From: Pseudomonadota bacterium
GTDB taxonomy: Bacteria > Pseudomonadota > Alphaproteobacteria > Sphingomonadales > Sphingomonadaceae
Direction: 5' to 3'
DNA length: 47,793 bases
Assembly (NCBI GenBank): GCA_018240895.1
Contig: JAFEEX010000043.1
Coordinates: 1 to 47,793, forward strand
The position numbers and the translations under genes were made by a program. The notes beneath the pieces were generated by a model. The model did no database searches, was not told the origin of the DNA, and worked only from the letters and a program-made list of their open reading frames with translations. Positions within the stretch are counted from its first letter, which is position 1, and the number at the start of each line of letters is the position of its first letter. Below are positions 3,204 to 10,387 of the stretch, in pieces.

Positions 3204-4112
3204 ATGCTTGAGGGCAAGGTTGTTGCCATAACCGGCGCAGGACGCGGGGTGGGGCGAGAGATCGCGCTGCTCTGCGCCGGCCACGGCGCGGCGGTGGTGG
3301 TCAACGATCCGGGAGTTGGCGGCGGCGGCGAAGGCGGCGATGCCGGACCCGCGCAGGAAACGGTGAACGACATCGTCGCGGCGGGCGGAAAGGCCCACGC
3401 CAACCTCGCCTCGGTGGCCGACCCCGTCGGCGCGGCAAGCATCATTGAGGATGCCGTGCAGCGCTTTGGCCGGATCGACGCAGTGGTCAACAACGCCGGA
3501 ATCTTGCGCGACACGATCTGGCACAAGATGAGCCATGAAGACTGGCGCGCGGTGATCGACGTGCACCTCAACGGTGCATTCAACGTCAGCAAGGCGGCGA
3601 CGCCCTATTTCCGTGAGCAGCAATCGGGCAGCTTCATCCATTTCACCAGCACCAGCGGGCTGATCGGCAACATCGGCCAGGCGAATTATTCGGCGGCTAA
3701 GCTGGCGATCGTTGGCCTGTCGCAGTCGATTGCGCTCGACATGGCCCGCGCCGGGGTGCGCTCCAATTGTATCGCGCCTTTCGCGTGGAGCCGGATGACC
3801 GCCTCGATCCCCGCCGAAACACCCGAGCAGAAGGAACGCGTCGAACGGCTGAAGACAATGAGCGCGGACAAGATTGCGCCTTTGGTGGTCTATCTCGCCT
3901 CGGATGCCAGCAAGGACGTGACCAACCAGATCTTCGCGGTGCGCAAGAACGAAATCGTGCTGTTTGGCAAGCCGCGTCCGGTGCGCTCGATGACCAAGCT
4001 GGAAGGCTGGACGCCCGAGGCGATTGCCGACGAGCTGATCCCCAGCTTCCGCCCGAGCATGGCCCGCGCCGATGAGGTTTCGGCCCACGTCTTCCCTTAC
4101 GATCCGATCTGA
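3204..4112 (+). CDS. Short-chain dehydrogenase, (3R)-hydroxyacyl-CoA dehydrogenase-like
   Basis: Oxidises a hydroxyl to a ketone with NAD(P); the context suggests a hydroxyacyl-CoA substrate. The Rossmann motif TGAGRGVGR is at 10-18, NNAG at 96-99, the catalytic Ser near 149-151, and YSAAK places Tyr162 and Lys166. An insertion after beta-2 (NDPGVGGGGEGGDAGPA, 34-50) and the extended C-terminus are typical of the dehydrogenase domain of peroxisomal multifunctional enzyme type 2 (HSD17B4). The start at 3204 (MLEGKVV) gives the normal SDR N-terminus and 302 residues; an in-frame codon at 3132 would add a non-conserved leader overlapping the lipoprotein gene. It is the first gene of the acyl-CoA cluster, 10 bases before the dehydrogenase. 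Confidence 0.88.
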   Translation: MLEGKVVAITGAGRGVGREIALLCAGHGAAVVVNDPGVGGGGEGGDAGPAQETVNDIVAAGGKAHANLASVADPVGAASIIEDAVQRFGRIDAVVNNAGILRDTIWHKMSHEDWRAVIDVHLNGAFNVSKAATPYFREQQSGSFIHFTSTSGLIGNIGQANYSAAKLAIVGLSQSIALDMARAGVRSNCIAPFAWSRMTASIPAETPEQKERVERLKTMSADKIAPLVVYLASDASKDVTNQIFAVRKNEIVLFGKPRPVRSMTKLEGWTPEAIADELIPSFRPSMARADEVSAHVFPYDPI

Positions 4113-4122
4113 GGAACGCTGC

Positions 4123-5298
4123 ATGAGCACCGTCAATCCCGGCATGGACGCCGACGTTTTCGACCAGTTCATCGAGCAGCTTCAGCGCTATGTGCGCGAG
4201 CGGCTGGTTCCGGCCGAGAAGGAAATCGTCGAGACCGACCAGATCCCTCAGGCGATCCTCGACGAGATGCGCGACATGGGCCTGTTCGGCCTGACCATGC
4301 CCGAGGAATACGGCGGCGCGGGGATGAACATCCAGCAATATACCCGCACCATCCGCGAACTGAGCTATGCCATGCCCTGCTACCGATCGATCACTTCGAT
4401 CAACATCGGCATGGTCTGTTCCGCGCTGAAGAACGGCGGGACCGAGGCGCAGAAGGCCGAATGGCTGCCGCGCCTTGCCGGGGGCGAAGTCGCCAGCTTT
4501 GGCCTGACCGAACCCGGCTCGGGATCGGATTCGGCGGCGATGCAGACCATGGCGGTGCGATCGGGCAATGGCTGGGTGCTCAACGGCACCAAACGCTACA
4601 TCACCAATGCACCGATGGCCGGGGTCGCGCTGATCATGGCGCGCACGCACAAGGAGGCGCTGCCCAAGAATGCCCACGTTTCGGCCTTCCTGATGCCGAT
4701 GGACACGCCCGGCGTTTCGGTTGGCAAAAGCGACAAGAAGATGGGCCAGGCCGGCAGCCACATCGCCGATATCATCATGGAGGACGTTCGCTTGCCTGCC
4801 GATGCCCTGCTCGGGCTTGAGGAGGGCAAGGGCTTTATCACGGCGATGCAGAGCCTGGATAACGGGCGGCTCTCGGTCGGTTCGGCGGCGGCGGGATATG
4901 CCCGGCGCGCGCTGGACAGCGCGCTGCGCTATGCCAACGAACGCAAGGCCTTTGGCGAACCAATCGCCAATTTCCAGCTGATCCAGCAGATGCTGGCGGA
5001 CAGCGAGATCGAGATCTACGCCGCCGAATGCATGCTGGAAGACGCCGCCCGCCGCGCCGATGCAGGGGAAAAGGTGCTGCGCCAGGCCGCCGCGGCCAAG
5101 GTCTTCGCCACGGAGATGTGCGGCCGCGTGGTTGACCGGGTTGTGCAGATCTATGGCGGGGCGGGCTACTTGGCCGAATACGACGCCGAACGCTTCTTCC
5201 GCGATGCCCGGATATACCGGATCTACGAAGGCACTACCCAGATCCTCCAGCTTCAAATCGCCAAGCATATGCTCCGCGAATGGGCAGCCAACCAATGA
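4123..5298 (+). CDS. Acyl-CoA dehydrogenase
   Basis: FAD-dependent alpha,beta-dehydrogenation of an acyl-CoA. At 391 residues it is a standard-length member of the family. Visible marks are the flavin/substrate motif FGLTEPGSGSDSAAM (about 126-140), NGTKRYITNA, the helix around ERKAFGEPIANFQLIQ, YGGAGYLAEY, and RIYEGTTQI with the usual catalytic-base glutamate at 369. The start at 4123 follows a GAGGAACGCTGC leader. An in-frame upstream codon at 4072 would run back into the SDR gene and is not favoured. Chain-length preference cannot be read from the sequence; the neighbouring genes suggest branched or dicarboxylic acyl-CoA esters. Confidence 0.92.
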   Translation: MSTVNPGMDADVFDQFIEQLQRYVRERLVPAEKEIVETDQIPQAILDEMRDMGLFGLTMPEEYGGAGMNIQQYTRTIRELSYAMPCYRSITSINIGMVCSALKNGGTEAQKAEWLPRLAGGEVASFGLTEPGSGSDSAAMQTMAVRSGNGWVLNGTKRYITNAPMAGVALIMARTHKEALPKNAHVSAFLMPMDTPGVSVGKSDKKMGQAGSHIADIIMEDVRLPADALLGLEEGKGFITAMQSLDNGRLSVGSAAAGYARRALDSALRYANERKAFGEPIANFQLIQQMLADSEIEIYAAECMLEDAARRADAGEKVLRQAAAAKVFATEMCGRVVDRVVQIYGGAGYLAEYDAERFFRDARIYRIYEGTTQILQLQIAKHMLREWAANQ

Positions 5299-5300
5299 TC

Positions 5301-5433
5301 CTCCCCTTCAGGGGAGGGGGACCGGCCGCAGGCTGGTGGAGGGGCACAGGCCGGTGGTCCTGCCCCTTCGATGACGCGATCAGCCGCGCCTGCCCCTCCA
5401 CCATGCTTCGCATGGTCCCCCTCCCCGCGCCGG
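5301..5433. repeat. Sphingomonad-type intergenic palindromic element
   Basis: A dense set of inverted repeats fills the gap between two cluster genes. It includes CTCCCC-TTCA-GGGGAG at 5301-5316, a larger pairing of a GGTGGAGGGGC segment near 5335-5345 with GCCCCTCCACC near 5391-5402, and a terminal hairpin with a TTCG loop around CCATGCTTCGCATGG. The unit looks like the REP-like element often found between sphingomonad genes. It may stabilise or attenuate the polycistronic message. Confidence 0.65.
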
Positions 5434-5443
5434 GGAGGAACTG

Positions 5444-6649
5444 ATGTACGACATTCTGACCGGGCTTTCGGTGGTCGAGGTGTCGTCCTTCGTCGCTTCA
5501 CCCACCGCCGGGCTCTACATGGCGCAGTTCGGCGCCGACGTGATCCGGGTCGACCAGATCGGCGGCGGGCAGGACTTCAAACGCTGGCCGGTGACGCGCG
5601 ACAACGATTCGCTGAGCTGGGAAAACCTCAATCGTGCCAAGCGCAGCCTTGCTCTTGACCTGACCCGGCCCGAGGGACGCGAGCTGCTGGTTGAGCTGTG
5701 CCGCAAGGTCGGCAGCCTGATCACCAACCTGCCCGCCAAAGGCTTCCTGGCTCATGACCGGATCGCCGAGGGGCGCGCTGACATGGTGACGGTGCGGGTG
5801 ATGGGCTGGCCCGATGGTTCGGTCGCGCTCGATTACACCGCCAACGCCGCGGTCGGTTACACCGCGCTGACCGGCCCGGTGGAAGACCCGCGCCCGGTCA
5901 ATCATGTGTTGCCCGCGTGGGATTTGCTGACCGGTGCCTATGCCGCCTTTGCCCTGCTGGCGGCGGTGCGGCGGCGCGAGCAGACCGGGCTGGGCGGTGA
6001 GGTGCGCCTGCCGCTCACTGACATCGCGATGGGTTCCGCCGCCAACATGGGCCGCATTGCCGAAGTGCTTTATACCGGCAAGGATCGCGAGCGGCTGGGC
6101 AATGCGGTGTTCGGCACGATTGGCCGCGATTTCGTCACGCGTGACGGGGTGCGGCTGATGGTGGTCGCGATCAACGAGCGTCAGTGGCAGGGGCTGATCA
6201 AGGCCTTGAACATCGCCCCCGCCATGACCGCGATCGAGGCGGAGCGGGGTGTCAGCTTCGCCGATGATGATGGAATGCGTTTCACGCACCGCGATGCGAT
6301 TTTCGCGGTGATCGAACGGGAAGTGGCGCGATACGATCACGCCGATCTGGTAGCGCTGCTTGATGCCAACGCGGTTGTCCACGGCCCTTACCGGACCATG
6401 GTGGAGGCGGTTGATGACCCGCGCCTCGTCACCGCCAACCCGATGTTCACTGCCACTGCCGACAACCCCAGCGGCTTTGCCTATCCCGCTGCTGGCGCCT
6501 TTGCCACGCTGCCGGCCATGGAGCGCAAAGCCCCCGCCCCCGCCCCGCGCAACGGGCAGCATAGCGAGGCGGTGCTGGCCGATGTGCTGGGGCTGTCCCC
6601 GGGGCAGATCGGCCATCTGATCGATCAAGGCCTGGTGGGGAGCGGATAA
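5444..6649 (+). CDS. mct: Class III CoA transferase, mesaconyl-CoA C1-C4 CoA transferase (Mct)-like
   Basis: Family III (CaiB/BaiF/Frc) CoA transferase of 401 residues. In Mct the CoA moiety moves within mesaconyl-CoA from C1 to C4. Features recalled from the Chloroflexus enzyme are present in order: VASPTAG, GGGQDFKRWPVT (about 40-51), NLPAKGF, VNHVLPAWDLLTG with the candidate catalytic Asp160, and FGTIGRDFVTRDG. The family is functionally diverse, so formyl-CoA, succinyl-CoA or other intermolecular transfer is possible. The argument for Mct is the company: a methylsuccinyl-CoA dehydrogenase-type and a mesaconyl-C4-CoA hydratase-type protein lie downstream in the same direction. A GAGGAACTG stretch precedes the start. 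Confidence 0.75.
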   Translation: MYDILTGLSVVEVSSFVASPTAGLYMAQFGADVIRVDQIGGGQDFKRWPVTRDNDSLSWENLNRAKRSLALDLTRPEGRELLVELCRKVGSLITNLPAKGFLAHDRIAEGRADMVTVRVMGWPDGSVALDYTANAAVGYTALTGPVEDPRPVNHVLPAWDLLTGAYAAFALLAAVRRREQTGLGGEVRLPLTDIAMGSAANMGRIAEVLYTGKDRERLGNAVFGTIGRDFVTRDGVRLMVVAINERQWQGLIKALNIAPAMTAIEAERGVSFADDDGMRFTHRDAIFAVIEREVARYDHADLVALLDANAVVHGPYRTMVEAVDDPRLVTANPMFTATADNPSGFAYPAAGAFATLPAMERKAPAPAPRNGQHSEAVLADVLGLSPGQIGHLIDQGLVGSG

Positions 6650-6661
6650 CCACAACAACAC

Positions 6662-6728
6662 CCGTTCGTGTCGAGCGCAGTCGAGACACGGGCGCGCAAC
6701 GTGTCTCGACTGCGCTCGACACGAACGG
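6662..6728. repeat. 29-bp perfect inverted repeat (REP-like hairpin)
   Basis: Arms 6662-6690 and 6700-6728 are exact reverse complements around a 9-base loop. The arm contains GTTCGTGTCGAGCGCAGTCG. Similar hairpins are dispersed in sphingomonad genomes. It lies between the stop of the CoA transferase gene and the thiolase start at 6746, so a transcript crossing this gap would carry a very stable hairpin. There is no T-tract for a classical terminator. Confidence 0.85.
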
Positions 6729-6745
6729 ACTCAAGGGATCAATTC

Positions 6746-7975
6746 ATGACCAAACTTCGCCCAAGTGAATTGAGGAGGGCCGCCATTGTCGCCCCGATCC
6801 GCACCGCCGTTGGCAAGTTCGGCGGCAGCCTGGCGCCGCTCACCGCCGGGGAACTGGGCGCTACGATCCTGAAGGCACTGATCGAGCGCACCGCGATCGA
6901 TCCATCCCGCGTCGATGATGTGGTGTTCAGCCAGGGCTATGGCAATGGTGAGGCGCCGTGCATCGGCCACTGGTCATGGCTCGCCGCGGGCTTGCCCGAA
7001 CAGGTGCCGGGTTATCAGCTTGACCGGCGCTGCGGCTCCGGCCTGCAGGCGGTGGTCAACGCGGCGATGATGGTCCAGACCGGGATGAGCGACGTGGTCG
7101 TTGCGGGCGGGTGCGAATCGATGTCCAACGTCGAGCATTACTCGACCGAGATTCGCAAGGGCGTGCGCGCCGGGAACCTCACCCTGCATGATCGGCTGAC
7201 CCGGGGCCGGGTGATGAGCCAGCCGATCGAACGCTATGGCGTGATTTCGGGCATGATCGAGACGGCGGAAAACCTGGCGAAGGACTGGAACATCAGCCGC
7301 GAGGCGTGTGACGCCTATGCCGTGCGCAGCCATCAGCGCGCCGCCGCCGCCTGGGCCGGGGGCAAGTTCGATGACGAACTGGTCCCGGTGTCGATCCCGC
7401 AGAAGAAGGGCGATCCGGTGGTGTTCGATCACGACGAGGGCTACCGCGCCGATGCGACGATGGAATCGCTGGGCAAACTGCGCCCGCTTGAGGGCGGCGT
7501 CGTGACGGCGGGCAACGCCAGCCAGCAGAACGATGCCGCCGCCGCCTGTCTGGTCGTGGCAGAGGACAAGCTGGAAGAACTGGGGCTAGAACCGATCGCC
7601 TGGTTCCATTCGTGGGCGGCGGCGGGGTGCGACCCCAGCCGCATGGGCTTCGGCCCGGTCCCGGCGACCGAACGGCTGTTCGCCCGCAACGGCCTGTCGT
7701 GGAGCGACATTGGCCTGATCGAACTTAACGAGGCTTTCGCCCCGCAGGTTCTGGCCTGCCTCAAGGGCTGGGGCTGGGCGGACGATGACAGCCGGCTTGA
7801 TATGCTCAACGTCAACGGTTCGGGCATCTCGCTGGGCCATCCGATCGGGGCCACCGGCGGGCGCATTCTGGCCAACCTGACGCGCGAGATGCAGCGCCGC
7901 GACGTGAAGTACGGGCTTGAGACGATGTGTATCGGCGGCGGCCAGGGCATCGCCGCGGTGTTTGAACGTGCCTGA
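6746..7975 (+). CDS. Thiolase family protein (acetyl-CoA C-acetyltransferase-like)
   Basis: Claisen condensation or thiolytic cleavage of 3-oxoacyl-CoA. The 409-residue length is normal. The acyl-accepting nucleophile is Cys96 ([11 protein letters not shown]), and the second half carries [16 protein letters not shown] with His365, and CIGGGQG with Cys395, so all catalytic residues are present. The ATG at 6746 is chosen because an earlier in-frame codon (6668) lies inside the inverted repeat. Its 3' end overlaps the GTG start of the next dehydrogenase by eight bases. Biosynthetic and degradative roles cannot be separated from sequence; beside an SDR and two dehydrogenases, beta-oxidation is the simplest reading. 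Confidence 0.92.
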
Positions 7976-9536
7976 ATGCCTGGACGCGGCGCGGCACTAT
8001 CGCGATGCGGCGCGTAGCGCTGCGGCGGGGATCGATCCCGCCAACCAGCGCGCGCATCACGGCTTTGCCTGGATCGCCACCAGTGTTGCCGCGCTGGAGG
8101 CGGTGGCGGTGTGGGAGGCGGCGGGCGGCGGGGCCAATCCGGTCGACGCGCTGGTCGCCCGCCTCGCCTTTGCCGAAACGATCGCGCAATTGGCCGGCGG
8201 CTTGCCGATGGGGCAGAACGAACTGGTGCGCCCCGCCGATCTGGGGCTGGGCACGGCAGCCGCGCAGCTTGTTTCTGCCTGCGCCGAACTGCTCGAAGCC
8301 GATCATGCCCCGACCCGCGCTGCACTGGCCGAAGCGCTCTCCGCCGGGCACTGGCCGAGCGAGACGCTCCACGATGCTGAGCTTGACGCAATCCGCGATC
8401 AGTTCCGCAAGTTCACCGAGGCGGAGGTGCTGCCGCACGCGCACAAATGGCACCTTGCGAACGATCTGATTCCCGACGCGACCGTGCAGGCGATGGCCGA
8501 TCTCGGCACCTTCGGGGTCTGCATCCCTGAGGAATACGGCGGCCTTGGCCTGGGCAAGCTGGTGATGTGCCTCGTCACCGAGGAATTGTCGCGCGGGTGG
8601 ATCGGGGCGGGTTCGCTCGGCACCCGCAGCGAAATCGCGGGCGAGCTGATCGCGATGGGTGGCACGGCGGAGCAGAAGACGCAGTGGCTCCCCCGGATCG
8701 CGAGCGGCGAAGTGCTGCCGACCGCCGTGTTCACCGAACCCGATGTCGGATCGGACCTCGGCTCATTGCAAACCCGGGCGCGTCTGGAAGATGGCCGATG
8801 GATCATCGACGGGGCCAAGAACTGGATCACGCACGCCGCCCGCTCCGATCTGATGACCCTGCTCGCCCGTACGGTTTCCGACGCGCGGGGCTATGCCGGG
8901 CTGTCGATGCTGCTGGTCCCCAAGCCGCGCGGCAGCGAAGGCGACGCCTTCCCCGCCACGGGCATGACCGGCAGCGAGATCGAGGTGCTGGGCTATCGCG
9001 GGATGCGCGAATATGCGTTGCAATTCGATGGCATGACGGCCCCCGCCGACGCGCTGCTCGGCGGCGAGGAAGGGCAGGGTTTCAAACAGTTGATGCGCAC
9101 TTTCGAGGGTGCCCGCATCCAGACCGCCGCGCGTGCCGTGGGAGTGGCGCGCCGGGCGCTGGAATTGGGGCTGGATTATGCCGTCACCCGCAAACAGTTC
9201 GGCAAGGCGCTGGTCCAGTTTCCTCGCGTGGCCGACAAGCTGGCGATGAGCCTCACCGACCTGATCATGGCGCGCGAGCTGACTTACGCCGCCGCGCGGG
9301 CCAAGGATCTGGGCAAGCGCTGCGACATAGAAGCAGGCATGGCCAAGCTGCTCGCCGCGCGGGCGGCGTGGAGCAATGCCGACGCCGCGCTGCAGATTCA
9401 CGGCGGCAACGGCTATGCCCTGGAATATGAGATCAGCCGGGTGCTGTGCGACGCGCGCATCCTCAACATCTTTGAAGGCGCGGCGGAGATTCAGGCCCAG
9501 GTGATCGCCAAGGGGCTGTTGGAGGGGCGGAATTGA
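7968..9536 (+). CDS. mcd: (2S)-methylsuccinyl-CoA dehydrogenase-type acyl-CoA dehydrogenase
   Basis: This acyl-CoA dehydrogenase of 522 residues carries an extra N-terminal domain of about 130-140 residues. That extension is the hallmark of methylsuccinyl-CoA dehydrogenase (Mcd), which forms mesaconyl-C1-CoA in the ethylmalonyl-CoA pathway. Segments recalled from Mcd are [13 protein letters not shown] and [11 protein letters not shown] in the extension, and [24 protein letters not shown] and [20 protein letters not shown] in the dehydrogenase part. [15 protein letters not shown] and IFEGAAEIQ (Glu503) are also present. The GTG at 7968, overlapping the thiolase stop, is preferred over an upstream ATG at 7917 inside the thiolase gene. 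A paralogue with another branched substrate is possible. Confidence 0.8.
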
Positions 9537-10387
9537 TGAGCGAGTGGCAGGACTGGATCGGGCGTGAGGAACTGCGCCACGACCGGATTGATCCGGGCAT
9601 GGCCGCCCGCTGGCTGGCGACGCTCGATCGCGTGGCTCCGGCCGATGGCTCCGCGCCGCAGGGCCTGCACTGGTGCCTGTGCCTGCCCGACGCGCCAACC
9701 GCCGCGCTGGGGGAGGACGGCCATCCGCGCCGTGAAGACGATACCGCCAGCTTCCTTCCGCCCTTGCCCCTGCCGCGCCGGATGTGGGCATCGAGCAAGG
9801 TTGAATTCCTGACCCCGTTGCGCGTCGGCGAAGCGGTAACCCGCACCTCGCGCCTTGCCTCTGTTACCGAGAAAAGCGGCAGCTCTGGCCGCCTGATCTT
9901 CGTTGAGGTTGAACACGAAACGCGCGGCGACCACGGCGTCGCGGTGCGTGAGGTGCAATCGCTGGTCTATCGCGAGCCTGCCGCCACCGGAACGCCACCC
10001 GCGCCGCCGCCGCTGGGCACCGCGCGTTTCGATCCAGGTGATTGGTCCGCCCACCGCGCGCTGGTGCCGGACGAGCCGCTGCTATTTCGCTATTCCGCGC
10101 TGACCTTCAACAGCCATCGCATCCACTATGATCTGCCTTACGCCACGGGCGCGGAAAACTACCGTGGGCTTGTCGTTCACGGTCCGCTCACCGCCACCCT
10201 GCTGCTTGATCTCGCGCAGCGCGAATTGGGCGACAACGCGCTGAAAAACTTTGCATTCCGCGGTGTATCTCCGGCCATCTGCGGGGAAATGCTGCACCTT
10301 GTGCTGCGCAGCACAGATGCAGCATGGGAACTGGGTGCCTTCGCCGCTGATGGACGTCAGGTAATGAGCGCCAGCGCGGCTGTCTGA
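9536..10387 (+). CDS. meh: Mesaconyl-C4-CoA hydratase / FAS1-like dehydratase-domain protein
   Basis: A double-hotdog protein of about 283 residues. The N-terminal half has LHWCLCLPDAPTAALGEDGHPRR and FLPPLPLPRRMWASSKVEF; the C-terminal half has FRYSALTFNSHRIHYDLPYA and VVHGPLTATLLLDL, the MaoC-like hydratase signature with its catalytic Asn/His. This matches the family of Chloroflexus mesaconyl-C4-CoA hydratase and mitochondrial HTD2. It would hydrate mesaconyl-C4-CoA to citramalyl-CoA if the Mct and Mcd assignments hold. The ATG at 9536 overlaps the last base of the preceding stop codon; another in-frame ATG lies one codon upstream (9533). Last gene of the cluster, ending next to the convergent arfB. 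Confidence 0.75.
   Translation: MSEWQDWIGREELRHDRIDPGMAARWLATLDRVAPADGSAPQGLHWCLCLPDAPTAALGEDGHPRREDDTASFLPPLPLPRRMWASSKVEFLTPLRVGEAVTRTSRLASVTEKSGSSGRLIFVEVEHETRGDHGVAVREVQSLVYREPAATGTPPAPPPLGTARFDPGDWSAHRALVPDEPLLFRYSALTFNSHRIHYDLPYATGAENYRGLVVHGPLTATLLLDLAQRELGDNALKNFAFRGVSPAICGEMLHLVLRSTDAAWELGAFAADGRQVMSASAAV

Follow-up and report, generated by a model that had tools for sequence, protein, structure and literature searches.

A sphingomonad gene cluster that pairs Mcd, Mct-like and Meh-like genes with a LinJ-type thiolase: a candidate catabolic route for methylsuccinyl-C1-CoA

The window analyzed here, a stretch of 47,793 nucleotides that constitutes contig C42 of a draft Sphingomonadaceae genome (G000; 3.17 Mb in 104 contigs, 89% complete), contains six genes on a single strand (3204-10387) that are predicted to encode enzymes of acyl-CoA metabolism (Table 1). 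Three of them resemble genes for enzymes of C5 branched dicarboxylyl-CoA chemistry, a methylsuccinyl-CoA dehydrogenase (Mcd), a mesaconyl-CoA transferase (Mct) and a mesaconyl-CoA hydratase (Meh). A preliminary description of the window had placed the frames at 5444, 7968 and 9536 in a six-gene cluster, and they are open exactly as claimed. The Mcd gene starts with GTG, although a longer TTG start is available at 7917; the GTG start at 7968 overlaps the stop of the thiolase gene, and base 9536 is common to the Mcd stop and the Meh start. Gene positions are based on tblastn or record annotation, since a simple gene caller gave wrong labels to genes and shadow frames. G and L numbers denote genomes and fetched loci, and f1 is the family of the window.

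Table 1. Genes of the acyl-CoA cluster, with profile matches or putative reactions
Gene	Coordinates	Strand	Length	Profile match or putative reaction
SDR-family oxidoreductase	3204..4112	+		PF00106; best NF005861, 261.5 bits against a cut-off of 373 (below)
ACAD1, short-chain-type acyl-CoA dehydrogenase	4123..5298	+
Mct-like class III CoA transferase	5444..6649	+	401 aa	Putative isomerase, mesaconyl-C1-CoA to mesaconyl-C4-CoA
Thiolase (PRK06205/LinJ type)	6746..7975	+		NF004853, 685.7 bits against a cut-off of 551 (above)
Mcd, (2S)-methylsuccinyl-C1-CoA dehydrogenase type, long form	7968..9536	+	522 aa
Meh/Ich-like MaoC hydratase	9536..10387	+	283 aa	Putative, mesaconyl-C4-CoA to (S)-citramalyl-CoA

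Among structure chains, the MCD 6es9 is by far the best match of the long dehydrogenase (599 bits, against 268 bits for the next). Passages of PMC5798300 name the PdMCD residues that serve the carboxylate, the methyl branch and proton abstraction by a glutamate, and ten positions (S248, R252, A285, F287, R376, E380, T418, R421, F534 and E535) were compared. From the 81 hits retained, the comparison took the 55 Mcd-like rows that score 240 bits or more, among them the 6es9 chain, and five with lower scores. All ten residues are kept in the window, including the three arginines, the A285/F287 methyl pocket and the catalytic Glu (6es9 frame), and they are identical in all 43 close Mcds, of which 7 are rows labelled as ethylmalonyl-CoA pathway (EMCP) enzymes and 36 are others. 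The acyl-CoA dehydrogenase core begins at residue 137, preceded by about 135 residues, and the 6es9 alignment starts at residue 24, which bears out the long form with an N-terminal extension and Mcd-like motifs noted previously. This sequence evidence strongly indicates an Mcd, presumably one that uses the (2S)-C1 ester.

Twelve other Mct-linked dehydrogenases, from gamma- and betaproteobacteria (L084, L088, L090-L092, L106, L108, L122, L127, L128, L131 and L182), keep the arginines and the catalytic Glu, with altered residues at the methyl-pocket Ala/Phe and at position 380. These are possibly a separate class of dicarboxylyl-CoA dehydrogenases.

The CoA transferase matches the Mct chains of Chloroflexus and Roseiflexus at 335 bits, compared with 92 bits for the next class III transferase, and is 45% identical to the Chloroflexus enzyme. 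Both motifs that had been pointed out in it, GGG-x-D-x-KRWPVT and VNHVLPAWD, can be confirmed and line up with Chloroflexus Mct. An alignment of 118 rows, made up of the Chloroflexus chain and 117 homologues from fetched loci, shows Arg47, Asn100, Asp135 and Asp165 in every row and Tyr136 in 107. Good homology predicts that this enzyme shifts CoA from C1 to C4. Two genomes of the same genus (loci L057 and L060, genomes G145 and G110) have the gene order of the window, with an SDR and thiolase 83-94% identical to those in the window, an ACAD1 at 73-78% and an Mct at 53-54%. There, ACAD1 and Mct look as if they had been swapped as a pair, which suggests that the two Mct types are interchangeable.

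The nearest Protein Data Bank chain to the hydratase is itaconyl-CoA hydratase (204 bits, with the match running across residues 4-255). In the hydratase tree the protein falls inside a sphingomonad clade, apart from Pseudomonas aeruginosa Ich and from the Chloroflexi clade. It had been described as a double-hotdog hydratase; the hydratase part of that description fits the PF13452-like sequence and the itaconyl-CoA hydratase match, whereas Pfam gave one hotdog domain only. By homology, the enzyme may make (S)-citramalyl-CoA from mesaconyl-C4-CoA. The matches of all three enzymes lie beyond chance, given their phmmer E-values (4.8e-99 for Mct, 7.5e-179 for Mcd and 2.1e-59 for Meh) and the recurrence of the genes together in related genomes. 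Matches to structure chains, co-occurrence and the ten Mcd residues support the enzyme types, and with them the conversion of methylsuccinyl-CoA to citramalyl-CoA that had been proposed.

With 76% identity, the thiolase in the window resembles genes of two plasmids, pISP0 of Sphingomonas sp. MM-1 and pMI1 of Sphingobium sp. MI1205, where they lie next to a pair of 3-oxoacid CoA transferase genes and an IclR regulator gene. The linGHIJ genes are located on pISP0, and LinJ is the thiolase of the beta-ketoadipate branch in lindane degradation, according to parts of PMC4289293; the pISP0 gene is taken as LinJ by its position and order, not by the name in its record. In the tree, the pISP0 thiolase is nested within Mct-linked thiolases (support 97/91), a placement that assigns the enzyme of the window to the linGHIJ thiolase clade and predicts a LinJ-type, beta-ketoadipyl-CoA type of thiolase. 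It would release acetyl-CoA and methylsuccinyl-C1-CoA. From its gene neighbourhood, the SDR is proposed to be the 3-hydroxyacyl-CoA dehydrogenase of a beta-oxidation round. We rejected ACAD1 as a second Mcd, as its diagnostic positions read SIGLAIVAYE against SRAFRETRFE in Mcd.

To place these genes in context, we surveyed 296 genomes of the order; the counts ignore kinship. Among survey hits for Mcd, Mct, Meh and thiolase, stop codons led to no exclusions and coverage to one. Close Mcds, meaning hits of at least 560 bits (87 genomes) plus three fragments of 51-73% identity, with hits at or below 45% identity left out, occur in 90 genomes. Ccr accompanies Mcd in 27 of these, and the remaining 63 all have Mct. 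The one genome of the 27 that also has Mct, G098, carries a ccr-linked Mcd and, on a separate contig, Mct-Meh-ACAD-CitE together with a LinJ-type thiolase (L164, L165). Mct is present in 118 genomes of the order, so the label "uncommon" given to the route in the preliminary description does not apply to this order. The thiolase (E <= 1e-150) is found in 117 genomes, among them 112 of the 118 with Mct, and lies within 10 kb of Mct in 103. It is the tightest partner of Mct in this order, yet the preliminary description listed it without singling it out. Meh (E <= 1e-20) occurs in 114 of the Mct genomes, above 320 bits in 83 and as weaker hits in the other 31, and is within 10 kb of Mct in 84. 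Close Mcd occurs in 64 (35 within 10 kb), and Mct, Mcd and Meh all lie within 10 kb in 21 genomes.

Could the cluster be a segment of the EMCP or of the 3-hydroxypropionate (3HP) bi-cycle, assimilating acetyl-CoA, or propionyl-CoA plus glyoxylate? The Mcd is 58-62% identical to those of ccr-bearing genomes, EMCP-labelled rows form more than one clade in the Mcd tree, and an f1 Mcd (L062, from G213) groups with that of Paracoccus; furthermore, Mct is related to the bi-cycle enzymes, and an Mch-like fragment exists on contig C90 of G000. Against this stands the distribution of Ccr, which does not exceed the cut-off in G000 (best match 61 bits against 378.55) or in any f1 genome among the 296. 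The 27 genomes with Ccr over the cut-off are all outside f1, and all have Mcd, three as fragments. No Mch is found among the six cluster genes. Mch-like matches occur in 24 of 196 genomes surveyed, 23 of them in families f4 and f8 (21 with Ccr) and G000 alone in f1; six Ccr genomes of f3 and f6 are not among the Mch-like matches listed, and their membership in the 196 is not shown. In G000 the match is a fragment on a 4.3-kb contig, beside a gene that looks sdhA-like by eye. The composition of this contig has an L1 distance of 0.285, equal to the largest among 18 pieces of the genome itself, and the contig may be foreign to the draft genome. Isocitrate lyase matches over the cut-off, in three pieces, indicate that G000 probably assimilates acetyl-CoA by another route. 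The cluster is not the EMCP, and we rejected a variant of it ending in pyruvate as well, since no Ccr exceeds the cut-off in G000 or in the surveyed f1 genomes. Nor is it probably a means of assimilating propionyl-CoA and glyoxylate, as had been suggested; with no f1 Ccr over the cut-off and only a fragment on a small contig as the f1 Mch-like match, we set that proposal aside. Overall, an origin in either assimilatory pathway is very improbable.

The genome background includes four other class III CoA transferases and two HpcH/CitE-family matches, both on contigs other than that of the window, in agreement with the earlier remark that the window holds no lyase. The cluster is flanked by metF-type and ArsR-methyltransferase genes on one side and by an RF-1-type gene on the other. 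At 1472-2470, a methyltransferase is fused to an ArsR-type regulator domain and adjoins the metF-type gene.

Related modules occur on plasmids and in other genomes, and an IclR regulator gene adjoins five of them. On pSHV1 of Sphingobium herbicidovorans, a CoA transferase, a dehydrogenase, a MaoC hydratase and a citrate-lyase-family gene lie in one run; the first three are 63%, 78% and 64% identical to the Mct, Mcd and Meh of the window, and the lyase scores 266 bits on RipC_Ccl, under the cut-off of 375. Genome G248 has the module Mct-Thl-Mcd-Meh-Ccl-HAD-Ech-Ech (Thl, thiolase; HAD, 3-hydroxyacyl-CoA dehydrogenase), with Ccl at 284 bits, and G122 has Mct-Meh-Mcd-Thl. In Azospirillum canadense, Mct-Mcd adjoins a Ccl-Ich-type set. 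Mct and Mcd lie near transposase genes on pCADAB1 of Sphingomonas sp. ERG5, known for degradation of 4-chloro-2-methylphenoxyacetic acid (MCPA) (PMC3877037); the term "acyl-CoA" is absent from the main text of that paper, which does not discuss the pair under that name. Plasmids of Pseudorhizobium flavum and Sphingomonas paeninsulae carry Mct, Mcd and MaoC genes amid beta-oxidation genes, and a Comamonadaceae plasmid has thiolase-CoA transferase-MaoC. Mcd adjoins MaoC on Novosphingobium aromaticivorans pNL2 and on p1 of Novosphingobium sp. ES2-1, with no Mct in the examined stretches. The S. paeninsulae run (L157, 9369-18661) reads SDR-MaoC-OB-fold protein-thiolase-ACAD-Mct-Mcd-MaoC, resembles gammaproteobacterial clusters (L084) and may serve terpenoid or steroid-like breakdown. 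Two unrelated plasmids have a gene for pyruvate carboxylase some 5 kb away from the one for the lyase (L152, 29106-32552; L155, 32711-36184), a proximity that fits pyruvate as product.

In a wider scan, at least 586 of 592 pattern-matched stretches encode a relative (E <= 1e-3). Over the best segment, the proteins encoded at the best 80 loci (L063-L142; 15 shorter than 10 kb) share 57-92% identity with Chloroflexus Mct. These loci come from Chloroflexota, Actinomycetota, Gemmatimonadota, Acidobacteriota and many Pseudomonadota, well beyond the organisms in which the bi-cycle is known. Within 8 kb of Mct, these loci have a Meh homologue in 38 cases, a CitE/Ccl homologue in 31, any acyl-CoA dehydrogenase in 16, a close SDR in 7 and a 3-hydroxyacyl-CoA dehydrogenase in 5. 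Since the ranking followed similarity to Chloroflexus Mct, the sample is tilted toward bicycle-type neighbourhoods. The link between thiolase and Mct belongs to this order and a few plasmids, and not to Mct generally.

We hypothesize, with a probability of about 0.58, that the cluster encodes a catabolic route in which methylsuccinyl-C1-CoA is consumed and acetyl-CoA and pyruvate are the end products. ACAD1, some hydratase, the SDR and the LinJ-type thiolase would carry out a beta-oxidation round on a methyl-branched C6 dicarboxylyl-CoA such as 3-methyladipyl-CoA; alternatively, the thiolase alone could act on 4-methyl-3-oxoadipyl-CoA. By structural reasoning, thiolysis of 4-methyl-3-oxoadipyl-CoA would yield acetyl-CoA and (2S)-methylsuccinyl-C1-CoA, the ester used by Mcd. 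Mcd would then form mesaconyl-C1-CoA, a step for which the sequence evidence is strong; the Mct-like enzyme, on good homology, would convert this to mesaconyl-C4-CoA; and the Meh/Ich-like hydratase, on homology, would hydrate the C4 ester to (S)-citramalyl-CoA. Finally, a CitE/RipC-type lyase encoded elsewhere in the genome, and by the fourth module gene in S. herbicidovorans, could cleave citramalyl-CoA to acetyl-CoA and pyruvate. The starting compound, the lyase assignment in this genome and every enzyme activity are inferred.

Since the intermediates are C5 compounds, the genes might instead allow free methylsuccinate, mesaconate or itaconate to be taken up and degraded, as does the pseudomonad itaconate/methylsuccinate cluster of Ict, Ich, Ccl, C4-Mcd and Msi (described in portions of PMC12290011). 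The nearest relative of Meh is an itaconyl-CoA hydratase, and the four further class III transferases could be counted in favour of this explanation. It would leave the thiolase, SDR and ACAD1 without a role, however, and no Ict, MmgE or Ccl is found among the six genes and their immediate neighbours (for MmgE, the search was not genome-wide). In addition, the Mcd is of the putative C1 type, whereas the Cupriavidus necator transferase yields the C4 ester (PMC12290011, in part). We regard growth on free C5 acids as improbable. What remains of the preliminary interpretation is a C5 branched dicarboxylate route with its enzyme types, from methylsuccinyl-CoA to citramalyl-CoA; growth on free itaconate or mesaconate finds no dedicated support in the cluster, and propionyl-CoA/glyoxylate assimilation and rarity in this order fall away. 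A further explanation, the clean-up of methylsuccinyl-CoA arising from side reactions of mutase and carboxylase, would account for the broadly kept Mcd-Mct-Meh set. The linkage to thiolase, SDR and ACAD1 in the order and the location on plasmids amid catabolic genes both suggest dedicated catabolism, and the likelihood of a clean-up function is slight in the extreme.

Several observations weigh against the catabolic methylsuccinyl-C1-CoA route. The Mct scores 344.9 bits on TIGR04253, under the NCBI equivalog cut-off of 725, which the Roseiflexus locus L063 exceeds (865.6). At the "cork" position, described for Leu43 of Mct in a portion of PMC9813914, it has Gln, where known intramolecular enzymes have Leu or Ile; over the 118 aligned rows this position is L/I in 91, P in 21, Q in 3, M in 2 and V in 1. 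Of the four control class III transferases from the same genome, two ordinary ones were aligned, and both also have Arg at position 47; Arg47 therefore proves little for Mct function, and we rejected it as a mark of intramolecular transfer. The only CitE-type gene in the genome scores 169.8 bits against the RipC_Ccl cut-off of 375, and CitE-type genes occur in 283 of the 296 genomes of the order. Being nearly universal, they do not allow the lyase step to be attributed to a gene here, and the presence of one was rejected as evidence for the route. At the threshold applied, the thiolase is absent from six genomes with Mct, although one of these, G122, has a thiolase of 53% identity next to Mct; Meh is absent from four. 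Among the 80 loci from outside the order, just 3 have a thiolase homologue no more than 8 kb from Mct, and just 3 a close Mcd at that distance. In the examined stretches of the plasmids, thiolase identity to the window reaches only 38% on pSHV1 and 41% on pCADAB1, and the pCADAB1 stretch has no Meh or lyase match. Moreover, MCPA-type ring chemistry would yield the C4 rather than the C1 ester at thiolysis.

Finally, 54 of the 118 Mct genomes lack any close Mcd, implying another dehydrogenase, a thiolase product that is already unsaturated or another substrate for the module. Some have an ACAD1-Mct-Thl-Meh core, and in these Mcd must be dispensable or replaced. Mct and its partners might act on a different, larger dicarboxylyl-CoA, with the CoA shift restarting beta-oxidation from the other carboxyl group, like ThnP in naphthalene degradation, and with Mcd as an accessory. 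Such a substrate would be compatible with the genomes lacking Mcd, with the cores that have no adjoining Mcd in L054, L055, L056 and L061 and with the altered methyl pocket of the 12 gamma- and betaproteobacterial dehydrogenases. Intramolecular CoA transfer on a larger acid is also known, for a family I enzyme (PMC11659651, in part). Yet the methylsuccinyl pocket is exactly kept in the Mcd of the window, and the recurrence of Meh (38 of 80) and lyase (31 of 80) near Mct, together with pSHV1, indicates C5 chemistry. A larger substrate is in our view unlikely.

The methylsuccinyl-C1-CoA route may have a wider extent, although we advance this only tentatively and with some doubt. It could be a widespread natural pathway in which methylsuccinyl-C1-CoA from methyl-branched 3-oxoadipates is drained through Mcd-Mct-Meh-Ccl to acetyl-CoA and pyruvate. 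In sphingomonads it would form the last part, spread by plasmids, of the degradation of methyl-branched rings, terpenoids or methyl-phenoxy herbicides; where Mcd is missing, mesaconyl-C1-CoA would be the immediate product of the thiolase. The end products of steroid rings were dropped as a source, given that they are proposed to be propionyl-CoA and succinyl-CoA (PMC5380842, in part). If correct, the pathway would provide an end for methyl-branched dicarboxylate breakdown that links aromatic or terpenoid catabolism with pyruvate, and methylsuccinyl-C1-CoA would gain a fate. In C. necator, whose Mcd uses the C4 ester, the C1 ester is called a dead end in a part of PMC12290011; with Mct and Meh acting after Mcd, that dead end would be resolved via mesaconyl-C4-CoA and citramalyl-CoA. 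Mct, known from autotrophic CO2 fixation, would thereby have a common heterotrophic role, with a homologue in 118 of the 296 genomes surveyed in the order. No description of the route was found in the literature searched, which left most subscription journals and bioRxiv outside.

Each enzyme is in or near a known family, and what looks new is that they are joined with a LinJ-type thiolase in a setting that is neither of the two parent pathways. As in the pseudomonad cluster, a C5 branched dicarboxylyl-CoA would pass through citramalyl-CoA to acetyl-CoA and pyruvate with the help of a related hydratase. The pseudomonad genes work on the C4 ester and have a CoA transferase entry, whereas here a putatively C1-type Mcd is combined with Mct and a thiolase, with no Ict or Msi in the cluster. 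The EMCP (Ccr, Ecm, Mcd, Mch and Mcl) uses the same Mcd family with the same active-site residues; in contrast, the family of the window is without ccr, and mesaconyl-C1-CoA would here be isomerized rather than hydrated by Mch. The 3HP bi-cycle of Chloroflexus and Roseiflexus (Mcl, Mch, Mct and Meh) shares the Mct-like and Meh-like steps. It differs in that mesaconyl-CoA would here come from Mcd and not from glyoxylate and propionyl-CoA, in the presence of Mcd and a thiolase, and in the Mct itself, which is 45% identical and scores under the NCBI cut-off. The linGHIJ branch of the beta-ketoadipate pathway has, in the LinJ position, a thiolase 76% identical to that of the window, where no 3-oxoadipate CoA transferase adjoins the gene and a C5 module is attached in its stead.

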